DNA of 36,172 bases, from the NCBI GenBank assembly GCA_017535925.1, contig JAFXTD010000018.1, positions 1 to 36,172 of the forward strand, in the 5' to 3' direction. The notes below the pieces were generated by a model. That model searched no databases. It was not told the DNA's origin and saw nothing but the letters and a program-made list of their open reading frames with translations. This document shows, in pieces, positions 1,573 through 36,172 of the stretch (within the stretch, counting starts at the first letter, position 1; the number at the start of each line of letters is the position of its first letter). The DNA is from Selenomonadaceae bacterium (lineage in GTDB: Bacteria > Bacillota > Negativicutes > Selenomonadales > Selenomonadaceae). The translations under genes were made by a program, and so were the position numbers.

Positions 1573-2309
1573 GCAATCGCCTCCTTTGTTGCCTTCGACA
1601 GAGTCTCACCGATATTTTCGCGAATGACAAGCTCGGCTTCGGCGTCGGCATGTGTGGCAGTCTTGTTAATCAAAATCAAATGACGACCTCTGAAATAATC
1701 AATCAGCCCTGCCGCAGGATAAACGATTAAACTTGTCCCGCCGACAATCAACGTATCGGCTGCGGCAATCGCTTGAATCGAATTGGCAATCGTTTCGTTG
1801 TCAAGTGATTCGCCGTAGAGGACAACATCGGGCTTGACGATACCGCCGCATTTTTCGCAGTGAGGCACGGGAATATTTTTCATGACGAATTCGATATCGT
1901 ACCTCGCGCCGCATTTGACGCAAAAGCTTCGACGAATCGAACCGTGAAGTTCATAAACCGTCTTGGAGCCGGCGACTTGATGAAGTCCGTCGATATTCTG
2001 CGTGACGACCGCACTCAAAATGCCGTGACGTTCCAACTCGGCAAGCGCAAGATGCCCCGCGTTGGGTTTGGCGTCGAGGTAAACAAAACGTTCGCGATAG
2101 AAAGCAAAAAATTCTTCGGGGTGCTTCACGAAAAAATTATGCGACGCCATTTCTTCGGGCGAAAAAGTTTTATTGAGTTTTTGATTGTAAATGCCGTTCG
2201 CGCTACGAAAATCGGGGATACCCGATTCGGTAGACATGCCCGCGCCGCCGAAGAAGACCGCGCATTTGCTGTCAGACAAAATTTTTCCAAGCCGCTCAAC
2301 GTCCGTCAT
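1569..2309 (-). CDS. Sir2-family NAD-dependent protein deacylase
   Basis: A 246-residue sirtuin, normal length for a bacterial enzyme that uses NAD+ to remove acyl groups from protein lysines. Visible motifs are the NAD-binding GAGMSTESGIPDFRS (about residues 22-36), TQNIDGLH (103-110) with catalytic His122 in HGS, and a zinc site made of C130-x2-C133 and C151-x2-C154. GGTSL follows near the C-terminus. A longer reading from a TTG at 2324 is possible, but the GGAGG ribosome site lies inside that extension and is well spaced from the ATG at 2309, so I chose the ATG. The gene overlaps the downstream membrane protein gene by four bases. Target proteins cannot be told from sequence. Confidence 0.93.
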   Translation of the reverse strand: MTDVERLGKILSDSKCAVFFGGAGMSTESGIPDFRSANGIYNQKLNKTFSPEEMASHNFFVKHPEEFFAFYRERFVYLDAKPNAGHLALAELERHGILSAVVTQNIDGLHQVAGSKTVYELHGSIRRSFCVKCGARYDIEFVMKNIPVPHCEKCGGIVKPDVVLYGESLDNETIANSIQAIAAADTLIVGGTSLIVYPAAGLIDYFRGRHLILINKTATHADAEAELVIRENIGETLSKATKEAIA

Positions 2310-2343
2310 TTGATTCGCCTCCAAATTTTTTTAAAGTGTGTTG

Positions 2344-2490
2344 AAAAAATCGAAACGCAGCGGGAAGTTGAAACCCGGCCGTCACGGATGACGGCCGCCG
2401 GCGTTAAAAACATGGATGTTTTTATAGCCGGTTAAAGCACCTTTCTTTTTGCTACTTTTTCTTTGGTGCCGGCAAAGAAAAAGTAGAAGA
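2344..2490 (+). repeat. Triple-hairpin intergenic repeat, copy 1
   Basis: About 147 bases shared with 4371-4520 and, inverted, 22383-22565. Hairpin 1 pairs CGGCCGTCA (2376-2384) with TGACGGCCG (2389-2397). Hairpin 2 begins CCGG and ends GCCGG, with a TAAAAACAT/ATGTTTTTA arm pair. Hairpin 3 pairs CTACTTTTTCTTTG with its exact complement around GTGCCGG and ends near 2488. Hairpins 1 and 2 differ in sequence from the other copies but keep pairing; hairpin 3 is nearly identical. It fills most of the gap between the sirtuin gene and metQ and ends well before the metQ promoter. Confidence 0.85.
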
Positions 2491-2544
2491 CACATTCGAT
2501 TTTAAATCAAGGCACGTCTTTTGGCAACGCCCGCAAAATTTTTG

Positions 2545-2572
2545 TAGACAAAATTTTTTCGTCTGATATAAT
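2545..2572 (+). promoter_or_regulatory. Extended -10 promoter of metQ
   Basis: TAGACA at 2545-2550 (5 of 6 matches to the -35 consensus), a 16-base spacer, then TGATATAAT, an extended -10 with a perfect TATAAT at 2567-2572. The leader to the metQ ATG is only about 25 bases and carries AAGGAGG, so there is no room for a SAM riboswitch or T-box after this promoter. Confidence 0.7.
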
Positions 2573-2603
2573 TCGCGGCATAAAAGATAAGGAGGAAATT
2601 TTT

Positions 2604-3440
2604 ATGCGAGGAAAATTTTTTGCGGCGGTAACTTTGGTGGCGACACTTTTATTGACGGGTTGCGGCGGCGGAGATACTCCTGCCAAGACCGAAAACAAAC
2701 CTGCTGCAAGTTCCGAGACGACAACTTTGAAAATCGGTGCGACGCCCGTACCTCATTCGGAAATTTTGGAAGAGATTAAGCCCGACCTCGAAAAGGAAGG
2801 TATCAAGCTTGAGATTGTCGAGTTCAACGATTACGTTCAGCCGAACATCGCGCTCAACGACAAAGAACTTGACGCGAACTTTTTCCAACACGAGCCCTAT
2901 CTCAACGACTTCGTAAAAGAACACAAGGAAGTTAAGCTCAAGAATGCGGGCGGCGTTCATATCGAACCTATGGGCATTTATTCCAAGAAGATTAAAGACT
3001 TGAAAGAACTTGCCGACGGCGCGACGGTTTCAATCCCGAACGACCCGACCAACGGCGGACGCGCTCTGCTCCTCTTGCAGAAGGCGGGTTTGCTCAAGCT
3101 TAAAGACGGCGTCAAAGAGATGGCGACCGTTCAAGACATTGCCGAAAATCCCAAAAACTTGGTGATTCAAGAAGTCGAGGCGGCGCAACTCCCGCGCACC
3201 CTTGAGGACGTTGACATTTCGATTATCAACACGAACTTTGCAATGAACGCCGACCTCAATCCCATGAAGGACGCGCTCTTTATCGAGGACAAGGATTCGC
3301 CCTACGTCAACATAATTGCCGTTCGTGAAGGCGACGAAAATCGCGACGACATTAAAAAACTTTTGACGGCGATTAAATCCGACAAGGTAAAGAAATTTAT
3401 CGAGACCAAATACAACGGCGCGATTGTTCCGGCTTTTTGA
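2604..3440 (+). CDS. metQ: Methionine ABC transporter substrate-binding lipoprotein
   Basis: A 278-residue MetQ/NlpA-family lipoprotein that binds methionine outside the inner membrane and hands it to the MetNI transporter. A signal peptide ends in a lipobox LLTGC with the lipidated Cys at residue 20, followed by a short polar linker. Family features include KIGATPVPHSEIL (about 43-55), EFNDYVQPN, NDKELDANFFQHEPYL, IPNDPTNGGRALLLL and the end stretch near TKYNGAIVPAF. Start is ATG behind AAGGAGGAAATTTTT. metN and metI, which usually accompany it, are not in the window, so this copy is an orphan here. The next gene, a sufD homologue, begins within three bases of the stop. Confidence 0.95.
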   Translation: MRGKFFAAVTLVATLLLTGCGGGDTPAKTENKPAASSETTTLKIGATPVPHSEILEEIKPDLEKEGIKLEIVEFNDYVQPNIALNDKELDANFFQHEPYLNDFVKEHKEVKLKNAGGVHIEPMGIYSKKIKDLKELADGATVSIPNDPTNGGRALLLLQKAGLLKLKDGVKEMATVQDIAENPKNLVIQEVEAAQLPRTLEDVDISIINTNFAMNADLNPMKDALFIEDKDSPYVNIIAVREGDENRDDIKKLLTAIKSDKVKKFIETKYNGAIVPAF

Positions 3441-3442
3441 TT

Positions 3443-4180
3443 ATGGAAGAAAAAATTTTGGGCGAAATTCCTCTGCGCACTTGGCATTGGCTAAACGTCA
3501 ACGAACTCAAGACCTCCGCGCAGCTTGAAGAAAAAATTTTAGACGTGCCCGACGGCGAGACGAAAACTTTTTCCGACGTGAACTTAAGCGAGGAAAATGT
3601 TGCGAGGCAAATAAAAATTTCTGTCGGGAAAGGCGCGCGGGTCGAATTTATTTCGGCTGACTTGGGACGCGGCGATTATTCTTCCGACGTTGAAATTGAT
3701 TTGCGCGGCGACGATTCTTCGGCTGACTTCGAGGCGGTTTACTTCGGCGACGGCAAAAGGAAATTGGATTTCAATTATGTGATTCGGCAGCGCGGCAAAC
3801 GGACTCAAGCAACAATGAACGTTCGCGGCGCATTGACCGATAAGAGCGACAAAATTTTTCGCGGGACGCTGGACTTTCAACGCGGCGCAAAAAATTCGAC
3901 GGGGCGTGAGCTTGAGGAAGTGATAATCCTTTCTTCGGGCACGCGCAATCGTTCGGTACCGCTCATGCTTGCCGCCGAAGACGAGGTCGACGGACACCAC
4001 GCGGTGAGCGTCGGGCGGCTTGACGAAGAAAAAATTTTTTATCTGATGAGTCGCGGGCTTGATAAATCGGAGGCGGAAAGGTTAATCGTCGAGGCGGCGT
4101 TCAATCCCGTAATGGAAAGAATTTCTGACGAGGCACTTCGCGAGGAACTTTCGGAAAATCTTCAGCGGCGGCTCGGCTGA
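3443..4180 (+). CDS. sufD: SufB/SufD-family Fe-S cluster assembly protein, short form
   Basis: A 245-residue protein with the SufBD core fold signature near the C-terminus: HHAVSVGRLDEEKIFYLMSR followed by GLDKSEAERLIVEAAFNPV. SufD partners SufB and the ATPase SufC in the cytosolic scaffold that builds Fe-S clusters. It is much shorter than classical SufD (about 400 residues); the variable N-terminal helical region is largely absent, a form I recall in Firmicutes and archaea. No sufC, sufB or sufS is present in the window. The ATG at 3443 lies two bases after the metQ stop; a TTG at 3437 is an alternative. I see no separate ribosome site, so coupling to metQ translation is likely. Confidence 0.8.
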   Translation: MEEKILGEIPLRTWHWLNVNELKTSAQLEEKILDVPDGETKTFSDVNLSEENVARQIKISVGKGARVEFISADLGRGDYSSDVEIDLRGDDSSADFEAVYFGDGKRKLDFNYVIRQRGKRTQATMNVRGALTDKSDKIFRGTLDFQRGAKNSTGRELEEVIILSSGTRNRSVPLMLAAEDEVDGHHAVSVGRLDEEKIFYLMSRGLDKSEAERLIVEAAFNPVMERISDEALREELSENLQRRLG

Positions 4181-4261
4181 CACAGCTGTCAAAACTGTTG
4201 AAAAAGTAAAACCATGAGCAGTCTGATAATAAGTTTGCAAAAACTTTTAAAGGAGATTCTC

Positions 4262-4285
4262 ATGGCAAACAAATCTTATCACTAA
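4262..4285 (+). CDS. Seven-codon minigene (or 5' remnant of a lost gene)
   Basis: AAAGGAGA at 4249-4256 is a strong ribosome site correctly spaced from ATG at 4262, but the frame reads only MANKSYH before TAA-TAA, and a terminator hairpin follows at once. The same frame is open upstream to an ATG at 4214, giving a 23-residue peptide MSSLIISLQKLLKEILM plus ANKSYH. That N-terminal part would form an amphipathic helix, but its ATG has no good ribosome site. It may be a tiny peptide gene, the leader of a small RNA, or the decayed start of a gene once downstream of sufD. I cannot choose between these. Confidence 0.35.
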   Translation: MANKSYH

Positions 4286-4288
4286 TAA

Positions 4289-4315
4289 AGCCCCGACGTG
4301 AGTCGGGACTTTTTG
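4289..4315 (+). terminator. Rho-independent terminator after metQ-sufD
   Basis: CCCGAC (4292-4297), loop GTGA, GTCGGG (4302-4307), then ACTTTTT. It begins four bases after the minigene stop and ends the metQ-sufD transcript. Confidence 0.85.
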
Positions 4316-4370
4316 ATTTCGATATGGCGCGTCCGGCGTGACTATAAATTTCCGTTGAGGAAAATGATTT

Positions 4371-4520
4371 AAAATCGAAAAAGCCACGGGTAGTGAACAC
4401 CCGGCCGCACATGGACGTGCGGCCGCCGCGACCATTTTGCGTGACGCAAAATACAGCGGATAAAGCGTCTTTCTTTTTGCTACTTTTTCTTTGACGCTCA
4501 CAAAGAAAAAGTAGAAGAAA
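4371..4520 (+). repeat. Triple-hairpin intergenic repeat, copy 2
   Basis: Same layout as copy 1. Hairpin 1 pairs CGGCCGCAC (4402-4410) with GTGCGGCCG (4417-4425). Hairpin 2 starts CCGC and ends GCGG, with ATTTTGCGT/ACGCAAAAT arms. Hairpin 3 pairs CTACTTTTTCTTTG with CAAAGAAAAAGTAG around ACGCTCA. It lies between the metQ-sufD terminator and the 3' end of the oppositely oriented DUF1858 gene. The rest of this 430-base gap (about 4521-4612) shows only a perfect 14-base palindrome at 4533-4546 and no gene. Confidence 0.85.
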
Positions 4521-4612
4521 CAATTTAAACTCATTGAACGTTCAATCGAAGCGAGGAACTCCGAATCACGACAGCCGGTTCCGCGAGTCCACGCTTTGGC
4601 AAAGGGGGGACT

Positions 4613-4849
4613 TCACTTCGCAACGCCCGCAAGCTCTGCCTCTGCCTCGTCGGACGATTCGGCTATTTCATTCAAAGCCTCAACGAGTTTGTCGGGGTCT
4701 ATGCCGTGAACCAGCGCGCCTTCCTCGATACTCTCAAATTGCGCCGCGTGACAGCCGAAGCAACCCATGCCCGCATACATGAAAACCATCATGGTATCGG
4801 GATAACGCTGAACGATTTCGGTTATGTTCATGTCTTTTGTAATTTTCAT
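4613..4849 (-). CDS. DUF1858-domain redox disulfide protein
   Basis: A 78-residue cytosolic protein matching the small DUF1858 family, also called the hybrid-cluster-protein-associated redox disulfide domain. The pattern is ITEIVQRYPDTMMVFMYAGM followed by GCFGC with C30-x2-C33, then an acidic helical tail. The paired cysteines suggest a thiol-disulfide or metal-related role, but no function is established and no hybrid cluster protein gene is in the window. Start is ATG at 4849 behind AAAGGAGGAATTTTTT; a longer upstream reading lacks support. It has its own promoter at 4878-4905 and diverges from rsmH. Confidence 0.88.
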   Translation of the reverse strand: MKITKDMNITEIVQRYPDTMMVFMYAGMGCFGCHAAQFESIEEGALVHGIDPDKLVEALNEIAESSDEAEAELAGVAK

Positions 4850-10831: not shown

Positions 10832-13800
10832 TTAACGGTCGCTTTCCTTGAGCACGTTGCCTTTGACTTCGTAGTGAGTGCCGTTGATGTTGAAAGAGTC
10901 AGTCGCATATTTTTTGAACGTGAGCGTGTTGTTGTCGTCGAAGTTAAAGGTGAGTGCGGAGGTAGTTTTGGAAACGACGATATCGTCGATGTTTATGTCG
11001 TTGAATTGGAGGATGTCGTCTTCGCCAAAGCCCGTGATTAAATCTTTGCCTTCGCCGGCATTGAAAACGAAAGTGTTGGAGCCGTCGTCGCCCCAGAGGC
11101 TGTCGTTGCCGAGTCCGCCAATCAAAGTGTCGTCGCCGTCGCCGCCATAGAGTTTATCGTTGCCCTTGCCGCCAATCAATCCGTCTTCGCCGTCCTCGCC
11201 GTAAATCACATCTTTGCCGGAGCCGCCGAGAATAGAGTTGTTGAGGTCGTTGCCGGTAATGTTTATCGCTGTCGTGCGCGCGTCAGCCGAAGCAGTCTTG
11301 GAGGCGGAAGCAAGCGTAACTTTCGCCGCAGAGCTGTTTGTATATTCTTCGTCGACAAAGCGTTTCGAGGATTCCGTGCCTTTGGAATCGATGAAAGCTA
11401 CTTCTTTGAAAGGAGCATTTTTAAGCGTGAGCGTACCGGAACCGACTTTGAGAACGACGTTTGCGCCGCTGATTGTATAATCGGAGATAGCCGCGTTGAG
11501 AGAAATTTTATCCTCGCCTTCGACATAATCGTAAATGAGGTCTTTGCCGCCGGTGTAAACGAACAAATCATCGTCCTCGCCGCCGATAAGCGTATCATTT
11601 CCTGCACCGCCCCAAAGAGTATCTTCGCCTTCTTCGCCGTAGAGTTTATCGTTGCCTTTGCCGCCGAAAATGCTGTCCGAACCGTCGCCGCCTTTGATAA
11701 CGTCTTTGCCCGAGCCGCCGGTTATTGTGTTGTCGAGAGCATTGCCCGTGATTGTCAATGCTGTTGTTCGAGCCGAGGCATCTGTTATCCAAATGCCGCT
11801 GCCCGCGGTGTGAGGCGTGGATGACGAATTATCCAAAGTCTCTTTGCCGAACATTAAATCAAAATCGTCGCCCGAAGAGCTTGTAAAATTAACCGTCTTG
11901 AATTTTGCGTTCTTAATCGTGAGCGTGTTGCTTCCAATCTTGACGATACCGTTGTTGCCGCTTACGCTTGTTGTTATATCAATGTCGCCGCTGAATTCGT
12001 CAAGAGAAATTACGTCTTCGCCCTCGACGTAATCGGCAATGGTATCTTTACCCGGGCTGAAGACGAAAACATCATTGCCTGCACCGCCGTGGAGATAATC
12101 ATTGCCTTTGCCGCCGTTAATAGTATCGTTGCCGTCTTTGCCGTAGAGTGAATCTTTTCCGGAGCCGCCGAGTATTGAATTATCAAGAGCGTTGCCGACG
12201 ATTTTGGTTGCCGCCGTGCGAGCCGAAGCGTCTGCACTCTCTATCGACGCGCCGAGTGTCACGGGCGAAGTATCATCATTGGTCAATTTTAAAATCTTGG
12301 GTGAATACTTGCCCTTAATGTTCTTCAAGCCGCCGTTGCCGCCGTTCAAAGTCTCAACCCACAAACTTGCCGCGCCGCTCAATGTAATTTCGCCGGTGCC
12401 CGCCGTAACGATAACGTCCTCGTCAACCTTTTGGGCATAGTAAGTATCGGTTGAGCCGTTGCCGATTTTGAGCGTCGAAGTCGAGTTGAATCCTTCGACA
12501 AGGTCGTTGCCGTCCCCCGCCGCTGACACTGAAACCAACGCTTTAGCGGAGTTGTCAATCTCGATGCTGTCATCTCCTGCGCCGCCGATTGCCGTGACGT
12601 TTGAGCCGCCGCCGATATAAATTTCATCATTGCCCTCGCCGCCGCTGAGCAAAACTTTCGTGCTGTTGTAAGCCTCAAGAGTATCGTCGCCCGCCTCGCC
12701 GTAAAGTTTGACGCCCGACGTTTTGCGCATCGTGGTGAGCAGATCGTTTTCTGCGCCGCCCTTGAGAGTTACCGTGTTGGCATAGTTGAAAATTTCATCT
12801 GCTTGAGCCGTGCCCGCAATGGATTTTTTGGTTGTTTTGTTGATTGTCATAAGACCTTCCTCCTTTTTGAGTGTCCCTTTAATATTAACGGCAGACAAAG
12901 TTGCCGCGCCCTGCAAAGTAATTTTTCCTTCGCCGACGGTCACGATAACATCCGAGCTGCTCGTTTGCGTGGAGTAGGTGCCTGTGCCGCCGATTTGCAG
13001 AGTGGAAGTTGAATTGAAGCCTTGAACATAATCGTTGCCGTCGCCTTGAGTGTAAGTGAGCAAGAGATTTTCGCCGCCGTTGTTTTTGATAAAATCGTCG
13101 CCTGTGCCTGCGTTTATCGTCCCGTTGGTTCCGCCGTTAATTATAAAGTTATCATCGCCCGCGCCGCCGTCGACAAAATAATCAGTGGCATTTCCTTCTT
13201 CCTCAACTCTATCTCCGTAAGCATAAAAAAGGTCGTCGCCGTCTTCCAAGAAAACTTTGGTTCCCAAAATAGCCAAGTCAACTCTGTCATTGCCGGTGCC
13301 CGCGTACAATGTAGAATTTTTTCCGGGATTAATGGTGTCATTGCCGGTGCCCGTGTTGATTAAACAATTTTCGCCGCCGGGATTGTAAATGTTATCATTG
13401 CCTTCGCCCGCGTCCACAGTGACGTTCGAGTTGCCGTCTCTGATTTCAATCCAATCGTCGCCCTTGCCGCTGTTGATTGAAACGTTTGAAGCGGAATTTG
13501 AAATATCATCGTCGCCCGCGCCTGTGGAAATCGTTGATTTATGACCACCCCAGTTGACAATTGAATCGTTGCCCGTACCCGTAGTGATTTTTCCGTAAGA
13601 GCCGGTGTTGAGAATCCAATAGTCACTCTTGTCGCCGGTGATGGTAACTTTGTCGCCGCCGTTGTGAATTAAGTCAATCGTGCCCTTTTGGTTGGCACCG
13701 ATGAGAGAAACAAAGCTCTCCCCGCTGTCGATAACGCTGATAACCCTTGGAACCTCATTCATTGACGAGACAACCCTTACATGGGGAAGAGATAATGCAG

Positions 13801-14194
13801 GGTATACGTCCAAAGTTTTTCCGTTGCTCAAGTAGAGCGTGCCGTGTCCGTAAGAATCTTCTATGACAGAAGATTCTACGCTGACGCCGTCGAGAACTAT
13901 CGTGTTGAGAGCCCAATAATCCGCAAGGACAGTATCGTTGCCGCCCGTGTAGACATAAACTCCGCCTTTGCCGCCTTCGTCGCTCATGTTGACGTAATCG
14001 TCACCCGCGCCGCCCAAAATCGTCGCGAGGTTGCCTCTGTTTAAAATTGTATCATTACCTGCGCCGCCGCTGATTGAGACGTTGGAGCCGTTGTTTGAAA
14101 TTGAATCGTTGCTGCTCGTGCCGCTGACCAAAGTGTCCGAAGTGCTGTTTGAAAATTCGGCGAAGCGTTGCAGATCAAAGACCAAGTTAACCAT
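10832..14194 (-). CDS. Large RTX-type calcium-binding repeat protein
   Basis: A 1120-residue acidic protein built almost wholly of RTX nonapeptides such as GGAGNDTIL, GKGDDWIEI and GGKGNDKLY, which form calcium-binding beta-rolls. There is no signal peptide; the N-terminus is VNLVFDLQRFA. Residues about 20-440 hold degenerate repeats and residues about 449-650 a second related block; both end in a FNSTSTL-x-IG ... DVIVT segment. Then come three tandem modules beginning near residues 653, 804 and 970, each with ARTxAxxIxGN, RTX repeats and, in the first two, DYVEGED before a beta segment. It is probably an extracellular or surface protein exported by type I secretion (family inference); no such system is in the window. 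An internal ribosome site and ATG lie at residue 449. Confidence 0.88.
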   Translation of the reverse strand: MVNLVFDLQRFAEFSNSTSDTLVSGTSSNDSISNNGSNVSISGGAGNDTILNRGNLATILGGAGDDYVNMSDEGGKGGVYVYTGGNDTVLADYWALNTIVLDGVSVESSVIEDSYGHGTLYLSNGKTLDVYPALSLPHVRVVSSMNEVPRVISVIDSGESFVSLIGANQKGTIDLIHNGGDKVTITGDKSDYWILNTGSYGKITTGTGNDSIVNWGGHKSTISTGAGDDDISNSASNVSINSGKGDDWIEIRDGNSNVTVDAGEGNDNIYNPGGENCLINTGTGNDTINPGKNSTLYAGTGNDRVDLAILGTKVFLEDGDDLFYAYGDRVEEEGNATDYFVDGGAGDDNFIINGGTNGTINAGTGDDFIKNNGGENLLLTYTQGDGNDYVQGFNSTSTLQIGGTGTYSTQTSSSDVIVTVGEGKITLQGAATLSAVNIKGTLKKEEGLMTINKTTKKSIAGTAQADEIFNYANTVTLKGGAENDLLTTMRKTSGVKLYGEAGDDTLEAYNSTKVLLSGGEGNDEIYIGGGSNVTAIGGAGDDSIEIDNSAKALVSVSAAGDGNDLVEGFNSTSTLKIGNGSTDTYYAQKVDEDVIVTAGTGEITLSGAASLWVETLNGGNGGLKNIKGKYSPKILKLTNDDTSPVTLGASIESADASARTAATKIVGNALDNSILGGSGKDSLYGKDGNDTINGGKGNDYLHGGAGNDVFVFSPGKDTIADYVEGEDVISLDEFSGDIDITTSVSGNNGIVKIGSNTLTIKNAKFKTVNFTSSSGDDFDLMFGKETLDNSSSTPHTAGSGIWITDASARTTALTITGNALDNTITGGSGKDVIKGGDGSDSIFGGKGNDKLYGEEGEDTLWGGAGNDTLIGGEDDDLFVYTGGKDLIYDYVEGEDKISLNAAISDYTISGANVVLKVGSGTLTLKNAPFKEVAFIDSKGTESSKRFVDEEYTNSSAAKVTLASASKTASADARTTAINITGNDLNNSILGGSGKDVIYGEDGEDGLIGGKGNDKLYGGDGDDTLIGGLGNDSLWGDDGSNTFVFNAGEGKDLITGFGEDDILQFNDINIDDIVVSKTTSALTFNFDDNNTLTFKKYATDSFNINGTHYEVKGNVLKESDR
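12848..12864 (-). promoter_or_regulatory. Internal ribosome site and ATG inside the RTX gene
   Basis: On the minus strand AAGGAGG is followed eight bases later by ATG at 12850, in the RTX reading frame (residue 449, MTINKTTKK). Translation from here would give a 672-residue C-terminal product. The match to the anti-Shine-Dalgarno sequence is better than that of many true starts in the window. Confidence 0.5.
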
Positions 14195-18180: not shown

Positions 18181-18240
18181 TATTCAGTGGTCAGTGATAA
18201 GCTAACAGCTAACAGCTAACAGCTAACCGCTAACAGCTAA
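18181..18240 (-). repeat. Heptamer array (CTAACAG type)
   Basis: Tandem 7-base units close to CTAACAG (about seven, some degenerate, such as CTAACCG) fill the gap between the stop of the gene at 18241 and the ribosome site of the gene at 17250-18167. Each unit carries TAA on the plus strand and TAG on the minus strand. Confidence 0.8.
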
Positions 18241-18942
18241 TCAACGAAGTTTCTTGCCGAAGTCTTCAAAGAACGAATTGCAAATCCTGCCGAACATGCC
18301 CTTTTGAGCTTGATAATCTTCGCGGTCGCGCACGTCCTTGCGAGCAAAAACCAACTCCATGCGGCGCGCCTCATAAACTTGCATTGTCACTTGAATTGTC
18401 GATACGTCCACACGTTGCGGCGGATAAGTCACGGGCACTTGAACATAACGAACTTCCTCGCGTCGATTGCCGTAACGGTCGTAATACCTGTAGCGTTCCT
18501 GCTTCTGCTCCCAGACGGTGTAGCCCGGCTTGACGTAGGAATTATTTTCCCAAGTGTCGACGTTCGCGAAAGCTCCGGCGTCGGCAATGCGATAAGCATT
18601 TTCTTCGACGATTTTGCGGGCGCGTTGAGGATTGGAATAGGCAAGCGACTCCAAATCCATTCCGAGTTCATAGCCGAGCGCACGACGCGCCTCCGATTCC
18701 GTCATGACGTTGCATCTTAAATTTTTTCGAGCATTTTGAACGAACGTGTCTTGCATGTTGCGCATGTCAATCGACCCGCCGTAATCTGCTCCGCGACTTG
18801 CCGTCACGTCGAAGACAATTATGGTTCGGATATTTCGGAAATAAAAATTCCTGTCGAACCAATCGGTTTTCTCGGCGGAAACATTTTGCGGCAAAGTCAT
18901 AATCGCCAGCAAAAGCAGCACGCCGAAAAATTTTTTTATCAT
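18241..18942 (-). CDS. Exported protein of unknown function
   Basis: A 233-residue protein with a signal peptide (KKFFGVLLLLAIMTLPQNVSA, predicted cut after residue 23). The mature part has FYFRNIRTIIVFDVTASRGA, an Asn/Arg-rich section and a Tyr/Arg-rich stretch (YRYYDRYGNRREEVRYVQV) before a strand pair VSTIQVTMQVYEARRMELVF. It recalls periplasmic or outer-membrane-associated DUF4136-like proteins in layout, but I do not recognise the family securely. Start is ATG at 18942 behind AGGAGGTG. Together with the SagB-like gene upstream and the exported gene downstream it forms a run of three exported proteins separated by heptamer arrays. Confidence 0.78.
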   Translation of the reverse strand: MIKKFFGVLLLLAIMTLPQNVSAEKTDWFDRNFYFRNIRTIIVFDVTASRGADYGGSIDMRNMQDTFVQNARKNLRCNVMTESEARRALGYELGMDLESLAYSNPQRARKIVEENAYRIADAGAFANVDTWENNSYVKPGYTVWEQKQERYRYYDRYGNRREEVRYVQVPVTYPPQRVDVSTIQVTMQVYEARRMELVFARKDVRDREDYQAQKGMFGRICNSFFEDFGKKLR

Positions 18943-18956
18943 ATAGACACCTCCTG

Positions 18957-19025
18957 TTTAATGCGTAATTCGTAATGCGTAAGGCGCAATTATTTTTTCA
19001 TTACGCATTGCGCATTGCGCATTCC
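18957..19025 (-). repeat. Heptamer arrays (GCGTAAT and GCGCATT types)
   Basis: Degenerate 7-base units GCGTAAT/TCGTAAT/GCGTAAG are followed, after CGCAATTATTTTTTC, by ATTACGC, then GCATTGC-type units and CATTCCTC. The array starts directly at the TGA stop of the SagB-like gene and ends before the ribosome site of the gene at 18942. Confidence 0.75.
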
Positions 19026-19676
19026 TCATTTAATATAGCCGACACTCTGCGCGAGAAGAATTGTTTTATCGTCAGAGAGCTTGGCGACTTTTTTAAATTC
19101 ATCGCGATTGATTGAGCCGCGAACACAATTTCCCAAGCCTTCGGTCTGTGCGGCGAGCGCGACGCTTTGAACCATTGAGCCGACAGCTATGTTTGCAAAG
19201 GCGATTTGACGGTCACGCGGCGGCGGAGTATGTTTTGCATTTGCCCAAGCGTCGGGCGTTTCAACGTAAACCAAATTCAACGCCGCCTTACTCACGAAAC
19301 TTTGACCGGTCGTCGTGGTTGCGCGGAAATCACCTTCGGCAATGAGCTTGAGCTTGTAATTGTCGGGGTCGTAAAGGTAAATGCCTTCGCGAGTGACGGC
19401 GTAGACTTCGACGGAATAAACTCCCAAAGCCGCAGGATTGACGCGCTTGCCGTTTTCGCGATTGATACCGTTTGCCGCCCAAAGGATTTTTGAAAGTTGC
19501 GCGGGCGACAAATTTTTATCAACGAAATTTCTGCTGCTCATGCGTTGATTGAGAGCCTCCGTCACGGAAAGTTTTGCATTCAAATTCGGCGGGGGCAAAG
19601 TCATATCGCCCTGCGCGGCAAAAGAAGTCGTTGTCACGAGGCAAGCCGCTGCCAATGTCAACAAAAATTTTTTCAT
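19026..19676 (-). CDS. Exported SagB-type nitroreductase-like protein
   Basis: A 216-residue protein with a signal peptide (KKFLLTLAAACLVTTTSFAA, cut near residue 21) and a nitroreductase fold of the SagB/ThcOx type: LSVTEALNQRMSSRNFVDKN, LSPAQLSKILWAANGINR, RVNPAALGVYSVEVYAV, GIYLYDPDNYKLKLI and a C-terminal AAQTEGLGNCVRGSINRDE. FMN binding and oxidation of an unknown compound outside the cytoplasm are suggested. An exported member is unusual but I recall similar ones in anaerobes. ATG at 19676 is nine bases after the stop of the upstream gene. A heptamer array begins directly at its stop. Confidence 0.82.
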   Translation of the reverse strand: MKKFLLTLAAACLVTTTSFAAQGDMTLPPPNLNAKLSVTEALNQRMSSRNFVDKNLSPAQLSKILWAANGINRENGKRVNPAALGVYSVEVYAVTREGIYLYDPDNYKLKLIAEGDFRATTTTGQSFVSKAALNLVYVETPDAWANAKHTPPPRDRQIAFANIAVGSMVQSVALAAQTEGLGNCVRGSINRDEFKKVAKLSDDKTILLAQSVGYIK

Positions 19677-21327: not shown

Positions 21328-21360
21328 TTCATTCCCAATTCCCAATTCCTAATTCCTAAT
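21328..21360 (-). repeat. Heptamer array (AATTCCT type)
   Basis: Four to five units of ATTCCCA and ATTCCTA lie between the damaged MATE gene and hldD. Reading on the minus strand, the last hldD codons and its TAG stop are formed by AATTAGGAATTAG, so the array supplies the hldD stop. Confidence 0.8.
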
Positions 21361-22314
21361 TGAATAATAGCCGCCTGATTGCAAAAATTTACAATACTCG
21401 TCGACAGCGATAACAAAATTGGTGAAGCCTTCCTTGTAACCTGCAGCCGTCAATTTTTTCATGTCGGCTTCGGTGTAGCTCTGATACTTGCCGCGCAGTT
21501 CATCGGGGAATTCGCAGTAGCTGATTTTCATTCCGGAGTGCATTGATTCAATCATTGCCTTAGCCGCGTCGTTGAAGGTGTGGGCGTGACCCGTGCCGCA
21601 GTTGTAAATTCCGTTGGCAATCGGATTGTCGAGACACCACAAATTGATTTTGGCAACGTCCTTGACGTAAATGAAGTCGCGTTTCTGTTCGCCGTCACGG
21701 TAGCCGTCGGTGCCTTTGAATAATCTGGGGCCGCCGCCGAGTTTCATGCGCTTGTAAATTTGATAGAAAATCGAAGCCATTTTCCCTTTGTGACTTTCCT
21801 GCTGACCATAGACGTTGAAATATCTCAAGCCGATGATTTTACTTTTAACCTTGTCGGCGAATTGCCGGACGTAGCGGTCGAACATGAGCTTGGAAAAGGC
21901 GTAGGGATTAATCGGAGCCTCGCAAGCCTCCTCCTCGCGAAAACCTTTCTTGCCCAAGCCGTAGACCGAAGCACTGGACGCATAAATCAGAGGGATTTGT
22001 TTCCTTATGCAAAACTTGAGAAGTTCTTTGGAATAATCGTAGTTGCTACGCATCATGAAGTTCACGTCGTATTCCATTGTGTCCGAACACGCGCCTTGAT
22101 GGAAGACCGCCTCGATATTTTGTCCGAGGCTTTCCAAAGTTTTGAGGAACTCGTCTTTGTGTCGATAGTCGATAAAGCGCAAGCCGATTAAATTTTTGTA
22201 CTTGTCGCCGCCGCCCAAATCGTCGACGATTAAAATATCTGTGCGCCCGCGTTCGTTGAGGGCTCGAACGATATTTGAGCCGATAAAGCCCGCGCCGCCC
22301 GTCACGATAATCAT
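21349..22314 (-). CDS. hldD: ADP-L-glycero-D-manno-heptose-6-epimerase
   Basis: A 321-residue extended short-chain dehydrogenase that converts ADP-D- to ADP-L-glycero-D-manno-heptose for the LPS inner core. NAD(P)-binding TGGAGFIGS is at residues 5-13, the catalytic region has SSASVYG (113-119) and Y138-x3-K142, and the family-typical LRYFNVYGQQESHKGKMAS and KRDFIYVKDV blocks follow. Start is ATG at 22314 behind AAAGGAGC; a longer frame into the upstream repeat is spurious. The gene argues for an outer membrane with heptose-containing LPS. Other heptose genes (gmhA, hldE) are not in the window. The last three codons and the stop arise from a heptamer array. Confidence 0.96.
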   Translation of the reverse strand: MIIVTGGAGFIGSNIVRALNERGRTDILIVDDLGGGDKYKNLIGLRFIDYRHKDEFLKTLESLGQNIEAVFHQGACSDTMEYDVNFMMRSNYDYSKELLKFCIRKQIPLIYASSASVYGLGKKGFREEEACEAPINPYAFSKLMFDRYVRQFADKVKSKIIGLRYFNVYGQQESHKGKMASIFYQIYKRMKLGGGPRLFKGTDGYRDGEQKRDFIYVKDVAKINLWCLDNPIANGIYNCGTGHAHTFNDAAKAMIESMHSGMKISYCEFPDELRGKYQSYTEADMKKLTAAGYKEGFTNFVIAVDEYCKFLQSGGYYSIRN

Positions 22315-22382
22315 AATTACGCTCCTTTCAGTTGCTAAGCTGTCAGCTTCCGAGTGTTGTTTGTAAATTGCTTTTTGAAAGT

Positions 22383-22565
22383 TTTCTTCTACTTTTTCTT
22401 TGCGTTTTTCTTCTACTTTTTCTTTGCATGCCCAAAGAAAAAGTAGCAAAAAGAAAAGGCACCTCGCGGGGGCGTTTCTCCCGCTGAAAAAGCTTCCGGC
22501 TTTTTACGCGGGCGGCCGCACGTCCATGTGCGGCCGGGTTTTCACTCACCGCTGCTTTTGATTTT
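22383..22565 (-). repeat. Triple-hairpin intergenic repeat, copy 3 (inverted)
   Basis: On the minus strand it has the same order as copies 1 and 2. Hairpin 1 has CGGCCGCAC/GTGCGGCCG arms (22513-22536). Hairpin 2 has CCCGC...GCGGG with GTAAAAAGC/GCTTTTTCA arms. Hairpin 3 has CTACTTTTTCTTTG/CAAAGAAAAAGTAG around GGCATG. Unlike the others it carries a second copy of the right arm of hairpin 3 (22383-22402 region). It occupies most of the roughly 290-base gap between cinA and hldD, followed on the cinA side by a heptamer array (22576-22608). No gene is seen in the gap. Confidence 0.85.
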
Positions 22566-22608
22566 ACCAACAATCCCTAACAACTAACCACTAACAGCTA
22601 ACAGCTAA
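22563..22608 (-). repeat. Heptamer array (CTAACAG type) at the cinA stop
   Basis: About five units (CCCTAAC, AACTAAC, CACTAAC, AGCTAAC, AGCTAAT) lie at the 3' end of cinA; the cinA TAG stop is inside the last unit. The leading TTTACCAACA also occurs at about 123-133 beside the first gene of the window, so both belong to one repeat family. Confidence 0.8.
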
Positions 22609-23405
22609 TCTGTATCTTCTTTGACAAATTTTATGTAAGCCTCGCCGATACGTTCTTTGCAAGCCTCGACGACGGGATTTAAAATTTTCAAAGCCTCGTC
22701 ATGATTTTCAGCCGCCGCCGTCACTCGAACGACACAACCGTCCTCTTTTGCGTAGGTGGCGACGGTCGGATTGACGCCGTCAAGAAGTTCGGCAAGTCTG
22801 TCGGCAACGGGCGACTCCCCGACGATTGAAATCGGCGCGTCGAATTTGCTTAGGCATTTGATAATAATCGACACCAAAATTTTATCGCTCTTGTCGTTGA
22901 GATAAAGTTCGCAACATTCCTCGAACATGGGTTGCATTTCGTGAGGAGGACCGGGCAAGAGGATACAAATTTTCCCGTCGCGTTCCATGACGCAGCCGGG
23001 CGCGGTGCCGTGATGATTGTAAAGAATCAAAGAATCGTCAGGAACGACTGCCTGCTTTTTCATGCCGTCAGATAATTTTCCGAAGCCGCGAGCCTTTGCA
23101 CGCTCCTCCAAAAAATTTAAAACTTGCGCGTCGACAATCGGAACCTTGCCGAAATATTCCATGAGCATTTCTTTTGTCAAGTCGTCTTTCGTGGGACCGA
23201 GCCCGCCCGTCATAATCACAGCGTCCGCCCTCGAATAGGCAACGTCAAGCGCAGATTTTATCCTCGCGGGATTATCGCCGACGACCGTTTGAAAATGACA
23301 GTCCAAGCCGAGATGAGCCAGTCGCTTTGCCAAGTATTGCGCGTTCGTGTTGACGATGTTGCCCATTAAAATTTCGGTGCCGACACTGATAATTTCCACA
23401 ATCAT
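22605..23405 (-). CDS. cinA: CinA-like protein lacking the PncC domain
   Basis: A 266-residue protein equal to the first two domains of CinA: the MoCF-type domain (EIISVGTEILMGNIVNTNAQ, AVIMTGGLGPTKDDLT, LPGPPHEMQPMFEE) and the middle domain up to GEAYIKFVKEDTD. Full-length CinA has about 410 residues and continues into a nicotinamide-nucleotide amidase domain with an AESCTGG motif; nothing of it is found downstream, where a heptamer array and repeat copy 3 lie. The N-terminal part is associated with ADP-ribose pyrophosphatase activity in some bacteria. Start is ATG at 23405 behind GAGGTGAT. The loss is at a domain boundary, so the protein may be functional. Confidence 0.88.
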   Translation of the reverse strand: MIVEIISVGTEILMGNIVNTNAQYLAKRLAHLGLDCHFQTVVGDNPARIKSALDVAYSRADAVIMTGGLGPTKDDLTKEMLMEYFGKVPIVDAQVLNFLEERAKARGFGKLSDGMKKQAVVPDDSLILYNHHGTAPGCVMERDGKICILLPGPPHEMQPMFEECCELYLNDKSDKILVSIIIKCLSKFDAPISIVGESPVADRLAELLDGVNPTVATYAKEDGCVVRVTAAAENHDEALKILNPVVEACKERIGEAYIKFVKEDTD

Positions 23406-24457: not shown

Positions 24458-24523
24458 AAGGAACAAGGAACAATGGACAAGGAATAAGTTAATTCCTCAT
24501 TCCTAATTCCTAATTCCTAATTA
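24458..24523 (+). repeat. Heptamer arrays (AAGGAAC then AATTCCT type)
   Basis: Units AAGGAAC, AAGGAAC, AATGGAC, AAGGAAT (24458-24485) are followed by ATTCCTC and then ATTCCTA units to about 24523. The array fills the gap between the ABC ATPase stop and the permease start and leaves no clear ribosome site next to the permease GTG. Confidence 0.8.
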
Positions 24524-34455: not shown

Positions 34456-36172
34456 ATGGCAAATAACGTAAACGTGATGATGATGACACCGAATCAACCG
34501 GTCTCGTCGCCGCGAACAGTTTCGCAGAGCACACAGCCGAGATATAGAGCCGCAACCCGAACGCAAGCAAGAACGACGTCGCGCACGGGCGGAAAAAATT
34601 TCGGCGCGACGCTCAATGAAATACACGCAAAGCTTGACGAGATTAAACAGAGCGTTCAAGATTTGAAAGAGGCTCAAGAGCAATCGCAAGTTGAATCGGA
34701 CACGCCCGACGAGGTTAAAAAAAATCCTCAAGACTTGCAAGAAACTCAAGAGGAACTGCCGCAAGTTGAATCGGACATGCCCGACGAGGTTAAAAAAAAT
34801 CTTCAAGCCTTGAAAGATTTTCAAGAGGAACTGCCGCAAGTTGAATCGGACACGCCCGACGAGCCGAAACAACTTCCTCAAGCCTTGAAAGAAACTCAAG
34901 AGGAACTGCCGCAAGTTGAATCGGACATGCCCGACGAGGTTAAACAATTTCCTCAAGACGTTAAAGGCACTTGGCAAAAGCAACAGCAAATTAAATCGGA
35001 CACGCCCGACGAGCCGAAACAAATTCCGCAAGCCTTGAAAGATTTTCAAGAGGAACTGCCGCAAATTAAATCGGACACGCCCGACGAACCGAAACAAATT
35101 CCTCAAGCCTTAAAAGATTTTCAAGAGGAACTGCCGCAAATTAAATCGGACACGCCCGACGCGCCGAAACAACTTCCGCAAGCCTTGAAAGATTTTCAAG
35201 CGGAACTGCCGCAAGTTAAATCGGACACACCCGACGAGCCGAAACAACTTCCGCCGCAAGCCTTAAAAGATTTTCAAGAGGAACTGCCGCAAGTTAAATC
35301 GGACACGCCCGACGAACCGAAACAAATTCCTCAAGCCTTGAAAGATTTTCAAGAGGAACTGCCGCAAGTTAAATCGGACACGCCCGACGAACCGAAACAA
35401 ATTCCGCAAGCCTTAAAAGATTTTCAAGAGGAACTGCCGCAAATTAAATCGGACACAACGGAACTCAAAACAGAAACAGAGATACCTGCTCAAGGAAAGA
35501 GCGACACTCCGCAGGATGCGCCTCAACGGGACAAAGAAATTTTATCGGCGGGCGAAAAAATTTTCATTCCAAAGATTCTTCCGAAAGAAATGTTCTTGCT
35601 TGAAGGAGAGGAATTGCCTGCGGAGATTTCTTTTGTCGAAGAGGAATTGCCGCTCGAAACAAAAAAGCCCGATACGGAAAATTCAGTTGAAGATGAACTT
35701 CCCGATAATCAATCGCCGGAATTTTTGACGTCAGGCAATATGAATTATTTCTTCGTCATGAACGCGGAGACGCTCCTCGCTGCCAAACCCGTTGCGGATG
35801 AGCCGAAAGTTGACGGCGTACAAAATTTGATGACGCTCGTGCCGCAAACGAAAAACGATAATGCGCAATCGATGTTGAAAATGCTGGGCAGCAGAGCTTG
35901 GCGAGCGATTGAAATTCAGCCCGTCGAGGCACAACCGCAACCGATTGTCGAAGTTCAACCTCAAGCGACTGTCGAAGTTCAACCTCAACCGACAGTCGAA
36001 GTTCAACCTCAACCGACAGTCGAAGTTCAACCTCAACCGACAGTTCAAGTTCAACCTCAAGCGAACGTTCAAGTTCAACCTCAAGCGAACGTTCAAGTTC
36101 AACCTCAAGCGAACGTTCAAGTTCAACCTCAAGCGAACGTTCAAGTTCAACCTCAAGCGAACGTTCAAGTTC
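34456..36172 (+). CDS. Repeat-rich protein of unknown function (3' end outside window)
   Basis: An open frame from ATG at 34456 (GAGGTGAGG upstream) to the window end, 572 residues visible and no stop. Residues 1-79 are basic then helical (FGATLNEIHAKLDEIKQSVQ). Residues 80-330 are ten tandem 25-residue repeats (one of 26), consensus near KSDTPDEPKQIPQAL then KDFQEELPQI. A unique acidic part follows to about 495, then eight-residue repeats (VEVQPQPT changing to VQVQPQAN) from 35944, nine full units and still running at the edge. There is no signal peptide or membrane segment. The family is not recognised; a scaffold or surface-linked role is speculation. Long minus-strand frames across the repeats are shadows. 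Confidence 0.8.
   Translation, partial: MANNVNVMMMTPNQPVSSPRTVSQSTQPRYRAATRTQARTTSRTGGKNFGATLNEIHAKLDEIKQSVQDLKEAQEQSQVESDTPDEVKKNPQDLQETQEELPQVESDMPDEVKKNLQALKDFQEELPQVESDTPDEPKQLPQALKETQEELPQVESDMPDEVKQFPQDVKGTWQKQQQIKSDTPDEPKQIPQALKDFQEELPQIKSDTPDEPKQIPQALKDFQEELPQIKSDTPDAPKQLPQALKDFQAELPQVKSDTPDEPKQLPPQALKDFQEELPQVKSDTPDEPKQIPQALKDFQEELPQVKSDTPDEPKQIPQALKDFQEELPQIKSDTTELKTETEIPAQGKSDTPQDAPQRDKEILSAGEKIFIPKILPKEMFLLEGEELPAEISFVEEELPLETKKPDTENSVEDELPDNQSPEFLTSGNMNYFFVMNAETLLAAKPVADEPKVDGVQNLMTLVPQTKNDNAQSMLKMLGSRAWRAIEIQPVEAQPQPIVEVQPQATVEVQPQPTVEVQPQPTVEVQPQPTVQVQPQANVQVQPQANVQVQPQANVQVQPQANVQVQPQANVQV
34693..35445 (+). repeat. Ten tandem 75-base coding repeats
   Basis: Units of 75 bases (unit 8 has 78) encode the 25-residue repeats. 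Units 5-10 are almost identical at DNA level including third positions, while units 1-4 have diverged (VKK in place of PKQ; unit 4 reads DVKGTWQKQQQI). Recent copying at the 3' side is implied, and length differences between strains are likely. Confidence 0.9.
35944..36172 (+). repeat. 24-base coding repeat array at the window edge
   Basis: Nine full units and part of a tenth of a 24-base repeat near GTTCAAGTTCAACCTCAAGC plus GAAC. The last four full units are identical. The array continues past the window end, so its true length is unknown. Confidence 0.9.

Follow-up and report, generated by a model that had tools for sequence, protein, structure and literature searches.

A mosaic intergenic repeat in a Selenomonadaceae genome with a predicted pseudoknot, a mirror-matched candidate third strand and CsrA-type hairpin loops

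Three intergenic copies of a repeated hairpin element were analysed in a 36,172-nt stretch of Selenomonadaceae DNA (the window), one contig of a 2.59-Mb draft genome that comprises 76 contigs and is 91% complete. An initial annotation, made from the letters of the window alone, had described the copies as a family of three stem-loops, and all three (two forward, one inverted) were present at the positions claimed. Their borders proved wider than had been given, at approximately 2334–2497 as judged from empty sites, 4378–4609 from tails compared by eye and 22352–22579 from terminal repeats. Hairpins are designated H0 to H3, the pseudoknot stem S1 and the H3 stem S2; L-numbers denote loci and G-numbers genomes. 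On the strand with GGA in its hairpin loops (the GGA strand), the order is H0 (small, in some copies), H1, H2, S1, TTT(T)CTTTTT, G, H3 and a tail. H3 consists of the stem arm CTACTTTTTCTTTG, a loop of 6–7 nt and the arm CAAAGAAAAAGTAG. The H1 loop is CAYGGAYG (CAAGGATG in one copy), the H2 loop is CAGGATG, CATGGATG, CCGGAAG or GTGATGC/GTGACGC, and the two loop motifs begin 28–33 nt apart. The parts of the three copies are as follows, with the H3 arms inside the H3/S2 stems.

2334..2497, forward strand: copy 1, whole inserted unit of about 164 bp by empty sites; its 5' half-repeat AGTGTGTTGAAAAAATCGA resembles a terminal repeat, and none was found on the 3' side.
2376..2397, forward strand: H1 of copy 1, CGGCCGTCA-CGGA-TGACGGCCG, GGA in the loop (sequence, predicted fold).
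2398..2431, forward strand: H2 of copy 1, outer CCGGC/GCCGG, inner AAAAACAT-GG-ATGTTTTT (sequence, predicted fold).
2437..2441, forward strand: 5' strand of S1 in copy 1, GCACC, whose partner is the loop at 2465-2469, GGTGC (covariation).
2442..2450, forward strand: candidate third strand (loop 1) of copy 1, TTTCTTTTT, mirror of the S2 pyrimidine arm TTTTTCTTT (mirror covariation).
2452..2486, forward strand: H3/S2 stem of copy 1, CTACTTTTTCTTTG-GTGCCGG-CAAAGAAAAAGTAG (pattern search).
4378..4609, forward strand: copy 2, approximate whole including the conserved tail past H3, from a by-eye comparison of the tails of 36 copies; no terminal repeats found.
4388..4402, forward strand: H0 of copy 2, GGGT-AGTGAAC-ACCC (sequence, predicted fold).
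4402..4425, forward strand: H1 of copy 2, CGGCCGCAC-ATGGAC-GTGCGGCCG, GGA in the loop; its first C may alternatively lie in H0 (predicted fold).
4426..4459, forward strand: H2 of copy 2, outer CCGC/GCGG, inner ATTTTGCG-TGA-CGCAAAAT, no GGA (predicted fold).
4465..4469, forward strand: 5' strand of S1 in copy 2, GCGTC, whose partner is the loop GACGC at 4493-4497 (covariation).
4470..4478, forward strand: candidate third strand of copy 2, TTTCTTTTT (mirror covariation).
4480..4514, forward strand: H3/S2 stem of copy 2 (pattern search).
22352..22579, reverse strand: copy 3; its terminal repeats, TAGGGATTGTTGGTAAAATC ... CAATTTACAAACAACACTC, are imperfect (terminal-repeat search).
22413..22446, reverse strand: H3/S2 stem of copy 3, loop GGCATG, S1 partner GTGCC upstream (pattern search, S1/loop pairing).

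The H3 arm CTACTTTTTCTTTG matched nine times in the window with at most two mismatches (0.55 expected; the largest number in 100 shuffles was 2). Further copies of the claimed family were found throughout the genome: the exact H3 hairpin occurred 36 times, the same pattern read backwards did not occur, and at least three more variants with altered arms lay within L045, L049 and L054. The H1 loop was retained in 35 of the 36 copies, and L047 had lost H1 and H2. When the 36 were lined up by eye they appeared as mosaics, in which the CGGCCG-type H1 class often came with terminal repeats and the GGAGCC and GAGGCC classes came without them. The lead-in before hairpin 1, claimed as conserved, was there in some copies, with a predicted H0 fold in copy 2, and was missing from two of the three H1 classes. 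An Rfam scan of the window at gathering scores gave no match. The GGA strands of copies 1, 2 and 3 folded at z = -5.6, -5.3 and -4.3 and the opposite strands at -5.2, -5.1 and -4.4; scores this close are expected of palindromes, and fold energies cannot separate the strands.

The bases that precede the T-rich lead-in to H3 are complementary to the H3 loop, with which they form a predicted pseudoknot, a feature lacking from the initial annotation. The two strands covary, as in GCACC/GGTGC, GCGTC/GACGC, GTGCCC/GGGCAC, GCACCC/GGGTGC and ACGCCC/GGGCGT. Across the 12 distinct S1/loop combinations of this genome, 45 of 48 tested pairs were Watson-Crick and none of 20000 shuffles was as good, whereas slid registers gave 9/36, 12/48 and 21/48 standard pairs. 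When the fetched loci of the family and the named Gammaproteobacteria were taken together, 45 distinct combinations yielded 164 standard pairs out of 180 (160 of them Watson-Crick), compared with 38/90, 40/135, 42/180 and 85/180 in slid registers, and none of 5000 shuffles was as good. These counts cover loops of 6–8 nt, the 45 combinations include a few reverse-strand entries, and the register was set by hand because the MAFFT alignment misplaced the loop gap. S1 was weak, with three consecutive pairs only, in eight copies of the GGGGTC/GGACAAG type, one GGGGCC/GGGCACG and one GCACC/GGTACC. In several genera the H3 loop has 3–4 nt and S1 is short or absent.

The T-rich lead-in itself mirrors the pyrimidine arm of the H3 stem in sequence and changes with it, which the initial annotation had also lacked. 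In a U.A-U/C+.G-C triple helix, a third strand that runs parallel to the purine arm needs a mirror of this kind. Pairs of candidate third strand and stem arm included TCTTTCTTT/TTTCTTTCT in G077, TCTCTTTTT/TTTTTCTCT in G164, TTTTCTTTTT/TTTTTCTTTT, and TTTTCTTT/TTTCTTTT in Pasteurellaceae and others, the last also with the roles reversed (TTTCTTTT/TTTTCTTT). Of 26 combinations listed, 11 were perfect, and several of the others were opposite-strand reads that passed the pyrimidine filter. In a balanced set of 23 rows, made up of hairpins with a pyrimidine-rich upstream and at most three rows per tract, the mean mirror match was 0.975 against 0.892 after shuffling (maximum 0.941), and 19 rows were perfect mirrors against 8.1 in shuffles (maximum 16); neither value was reached in 3000 shuffles. 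The match at C positions alone was weaker (28/31 vs 24.3 shuffled; reached in 31 of 3000). Third strands that covary with their stems are, to our knowledge, a rare observation, and the present one offers an evolutionary argument for a naturally occurring bacterial triple helix.

Candidate triplex hairpins with pyrimidine tracts of 21–25 nt were observed at L091, L094, L103, L105 and L109, in the genomes G120 and G021, where csrA was not found. In the G120 tracts, 14 of 14 compared bases matched in four rows (with two or three C) and 11 of 14 in one; the long tracts of G021 matched at 12/14 and 13/14. The rows imperfect at the register scored were L094 (13/14), L105 (12/14) and one L103 row (11/14).

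Two known groups resemble the 3' part of the element. Class IV intrastrand triplexes are formed by one strand in the order Hoogsteen pyrimidine, pyrimidine, purine (PMC4666352), and the Hoogsteen-compatible lead-in tracking the stem would place the element with them; the strand order, intergenic position, many copies and absence of strand bias are alike. That paper details the G/C-rich purine-motif TMECO (class II), which is unlike the element, and its main text does not use the words 'pseudoknot', 'CsrA' or 'Xanthomonas'.

The second group is the triple-helix pseudoknot RNAs, a description also given to SAM-V. They share a U-rich first loop, proposed here to lie in the groove of an A-U stem. 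The present element differs from them in being bacterial and multi-copy, with C positions that track the stem, and in its several genera with a loop of 3–4 nt and a short or absent S1.

Upstream of this domain, the arms of H1 and H2 change between copies and stay paired, as had been claimed. The 99 distinct GGA-loop hairpins, picked by three paired bases beside the loop motif, had 58 six-base arm pairs; 62 came from the genus of this genome (G077 and G084 excluded). Counted outward, pairs 4, 5, 6 and 7 were Watson-Crick in 95, 85, 72 and 66 of the 99. These arm changes, the S1/loop covariation and the mirror covariation strongly support the selection on structure that the three window copies had suggested.

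H1 and H2 also resemble TwoAYGGAY (RF01731), a family listed in PMC2864571 and proposed in 2014 as a CsrA binder (PMC4333381). Both have two adjacent hairpins with AYGGAY-like loops (the second is often GUGA here), changing arms and, in many carriers, several matches per genome. The best scores were 35.6 bits among ten loci and 36.1 bits in the whole genome (six matches), short of the gathering score of 43. One copy aligned over the whole model, positions 1-168 (36.1 bits); the other five matches covered the two hairpins only, and no outer stem appeared in the folds of the window copies. R1, a covariance model of the H3 domain, matched none of 30 TwoAYGGAY loci, unlike the element here, although R1 models one triplex only. 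In a phylum sample searched with strict filters, TwoAYGGAY was found in 50 of 398 genomes (33 over the cut-off) and in none of 11 listed genomes of this family.

The H1 and H2 loops match the CsrA site obtained by SELEX, and their spacing falls inside the reported bridging range of 10–63 nt (PMC7652899), so that one CsrA dimer could bridge the two hairpins. GGA stands in the hairpin loop with an ACA/GU context, as in CsrA sponges; the GUGA forms of H2 lack it. GGA hairpins were tallied in 181 rows (175 distinct sites), drawn only from fetched loci that were mostly found by R1 or the exact pattern. Because row detection required a near-mirror loop 1, the rows show what lies upstream and nothing on triplex frequency. 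GGA hairpins occurred in 123 rows and TCC hairpins, their opposite-strand equivalent, in 9. By distinct site, a GGA hairpin lay upstream in 35/36 of this genome (two in 22/36), 30/32 others of the genus, 28/31 of Thalassocella (one assembly with near-identical copies), 9/12 of Xanthomonadaceae, 3/3 of Solimonas and 2/4 of another Selenomonadaceae assembly. A csrA gene was found in this genome and in 167 of 189 family genomes. The triplex part was kept and GGA hairpins were found at 0/5 sites in G038 and G039, which are near-complete with no csrA match, and likewise at 0/5 sites in G021 and G120, where csrA was not found. The lack of GGA hairpins in these genomes may reflect ancestry instead of function.

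A covariance-model search, which the initial annotation had called for, showed that R1 finds copies in many relatives. At E 0.01 it matched 79 of 189 family genomes (57 of 66 in the genus and 22 of 123 others), with at most 28 candidates scored per genome and sites matched on both strands counted twice; the richest were G084 with 121 matches and G120 with 69, double matches included. At E 0.001 it matched 4 of 398 genomes of the phylum sample, this one among them, which is a lower bound under strict filters and 13 candidates scored per genome. R1 also matched in some Gammaproteobacteria. A near-exact domain was found in 66 stretches of GTDB contigs, in a scan from which entries for this genome and for very close ones may be missing. 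The carriers were Xanthomonas, Lysobacter, Pseudoxanthomonas, Solimonas, one Thalassocella assembly, Pasteurellaceae, a record titled Pseudomonas stutzeri, one Gastranaerophilales and the other Selenomonadaceae assembly, whose copy at L180 has a layout similar to that of this genome. S1 and loop mostly pair in the named GTDB copies, and those of Xanthomonas, Solimonas, Lysobacter and Thalassocella are preceded by GGA hairpins. The copies in the record titled P. stutzeri resemble those of Pasteurellaceae. In that record, L131 3351-3452 (minus strand) matched RF02902, the Aggregatibacter sRNA AaHKsRNA22, at 77.7 bits (cut-off 39.8), with the pseudoknot domain 11 nt downstream; at least one relative may therefore be transcribed.

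The initial annotation had offered a miniature inverted-repeat transposable element (MITE) moved in trans as one reading, and this fits a subset of copies. Terminal repeats of the type TAGGGNCTGTTGGTAAATT...AATTTACCAACA (at most two edits) were found on both sides in 11 of 36 copies, over spans of 163–231 bp, after one further pair judged to be chance had been dropped. A DUF4096 (IS4/5) transposase remnant adjoins the copy at L017 and ends in the same kind of terminal repeat, as in IS5-family MITEs, whose terminal inverted repeats are held in common with a transposase-bearing element of the genome. The other 25 copies differ from such MITEs in lacking one or both ends. TA, a possible short target duplication, was seen by eye at several ends, and long direct repeats flank other copies. 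The empty-site check suggested with the initial annotation showed copy 1 missing as a block from G057, G055, G099, G102 and G072; in G111, the nearest relative, it was internally deleted, and in G060 and G056 the corresponding position was occupied by a different sequence. The comparison used 13 of the 30 loci fetched, and 8 were aligned.

We consider that these sequence patterns are best explained, with a probability of roughly 0.42, by a mosaic element, carried in part by a MITE, whose product would be an RNA resembling a CsrA sponge and ending in a triple-helix pseudoknot. This RNA would be compact and structured and would be read from the GGA strand, with H1 and H2 presenting CsrA-type loops about 28–33 nt apart. 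Scattered in large number, the copies of the element would together soak up CsrA as a sponge, or would form patches bound by CsrA within any transcript that runs across them. The 3' part would be an H-type pseudoknot in which S1 (3–6 bp) stacks on S2, the AT-rich H3. The T-rich loop 1 would then lie along S2 in its deep groove, supply the third strand of U.A-U and C+.G-C triples, clamp the A-rich 3' strand and shield the RNA from 3' exonucleases. Some copies would spread within an IS5-type MITE and the rest otherwise. We infer RNA over DNA as the acting form because of the one-strand GGA loops, the TwoAYGGAY similarity and the absence of GGA hairpins from the four csrA-less genomes examined; triplex formation, CsrA binding, the protective role and the mobilising enzyme are proposed parts of the same account.

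If it acts as RNA, the element would give bacteria an equivalent of the triple helices that stabilise RNAs elsewhere, and would be a mobile element that titrates the global regulator CsrA. The old puzzle of what intergenic triplex repeats do would become directly testable through a transcript, CsrA binding and third-strand protection. The description as a new family held in part: H1 and H2 resemble TwoAYGGAY, and triplex repeats were published as a class (PMC4666352). No description of the composite element, the TwoAYGGAY-triplex fusion, the pseudoknot or the third-strand covariation turned up in the open-access literature searched, which included few subscription papers. Both components being known, this suggests that their combination is new as far as that literature goes.

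A broader version is unlikely in our estimate. In it, the 3' part would be a bacterial RNA domain that distant lineages have in common. The domain would fold as an H-type pseudoknot, contain a triple helix of covarying U.A-U and C+.G-C triples and protect a 3' end as a viral or telomerase triple helix does. Both a Selenomonadaceae-like family and Gammaproteobacteria would reuse it as the tail of mobile RNAs that sponge up CsrA, and the GGA hairpins would have been lost along with csrA.

Several observations weigh against the CsrA-sponge RNA. An RNA selected on one strand should show an excess of G.U over A.C, and none was found (5 vs 7 at outward pairs 4-6, 3 vs 11 at pair 7), which speaks mildly against RNA; the TwoAYGGAY control of 33 hairpins gave 2 vs 1. 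Of the 35 own copies, 11 have GUGA instead of GGA in H2, and copy 2 of the window is one of them; the stems are also longer than the four pairs or fewer of most SELEX winners (PMC7652899). Only 2/24 sites in Pasteurellaceae, and 0/4 in the P. stutzeri-titled record, had GGA hairpins upstream, and the triplex part therefore cannot be accounted for by CsrA. In the csrA-bearing genera other than that of this genome, GGA hairpins were found at just 1/2 sites each in G043, G143, G147 and G166. The csrA link itself consists of four genomes in three genera, of which G021 is 79% complete, and G121 and G122, csrA-bearing sisters of G120, match R1 too. No promoter-like site was found just upstream of copies 1 and 2 in a scan of 2200-4800. 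The flanking genes likewise showed no orientation bias, since 20 of the 36 copies shared the strand of their upstream gene and 16 did not (same/same 13, opposite/opposite 11, same/opposite 6, opposite/same 4; for two copies a gene was called on just one side).

A DNA-level triplex repeat is a strong rival and nearly as probable. The element would then be a parasitic repeat whose palindromes and mirror matter as single-stranded DNA, in a cruciform or intrastrand triplex during transposition or replication; it would have no RNA function, and its CsrA-like loops would be incidental or come from a captured TwoAYGGAY-like element. The unbiased gene orientation, the missing G.U excess and the lack of a promoter fit this reading, as do the terminal repeats at both ends of 11 copies and the empty site of copy 1. 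Against it, the GGA loop that is constant on one strand (the 123 vs 9 rows) and the wholesale change of arms round a fixed loop resemble the site of an RNA-binding protein.

The element could instead be a 3'-end or terminator-like structure of the neighbouring genes, stabilising their mRNA, which we regard as improbable. It would suit the 28 of 36 copies that overlap no called open reading frame (frame calling was crude, and over-long frames account for some of the 8 overlaps) and the tail modules with hairpin-like ends seen by eye. The near-even split of upstream genes between the strands is not what it predicts, no T-run was seen by eye past H3, and neither copy 1 nor copy 2 had its H3 called when 2200-4800 was scanned for terminators. 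Cis-regulation or a terminator role, judged by gene orientation, was rejected for want of bias.

Flanking direct repeats bear on an explanation that we hold to be very improbable, namely that copies without terminal inverted repeats arose by RNA-mediated copying (reverse transcription) with long, variable target duplications. Repeats scoring at least 16 flanked 10 of 65 genus copies against 1.1 expected (maximum 3 in 30 re-pairings), and four scored at least 20 against 0 expected; the copies counted were those with a GGA hairpin and sufficient flank. Two of the four best (L004 and L099) resemble the short intergenic repeats of the genus. The best single case is L037, where a 19-bp repeat flanks the element and is single at the empty sites of two sister genomes. 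This duplication is clouded because the orthologous site in G111 (L308 2340-9960) is split by a rearrangement, with repeat copies at both ends and no element. Variable-length direct repeats of 13–28 bp were observed around the copies at L037 (3000-3250), L057, L031, L034 and L104, and a GGAGCC-type element occupies the same intergenic site as L037 at L282 in G063.

The remaining suggestion of the initial annotation, a palindromic element of REP type, taken here as a REP/BIME palindrome moved by a RAYT (Y1) transposase, suits the mostly intergenic, palindromic and numerous copies and was dismissed as highly improbable, since no PF01797 match was found in this 91% complete assembly, whereas the control search found PF01797 in E. 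coli and four others of 14 genomes.

Other repeats were noted in the window. Short head-to-tail intergenic repeats of the CTAACAGCTAACAG and ATTCCTAATTCCTA types lie at 18195-18242, 22577-22624, 18958-19030, 21328-21361 and 24489-24522, and such repeats recur at other intergenic sites of the genus. A 1120-aa frame at 10832-14194 (minus strand) is full of degenerate repeats, and tandem repeats of 75 bp and 24 bp occupy 34600-35555 and 35884-36171.
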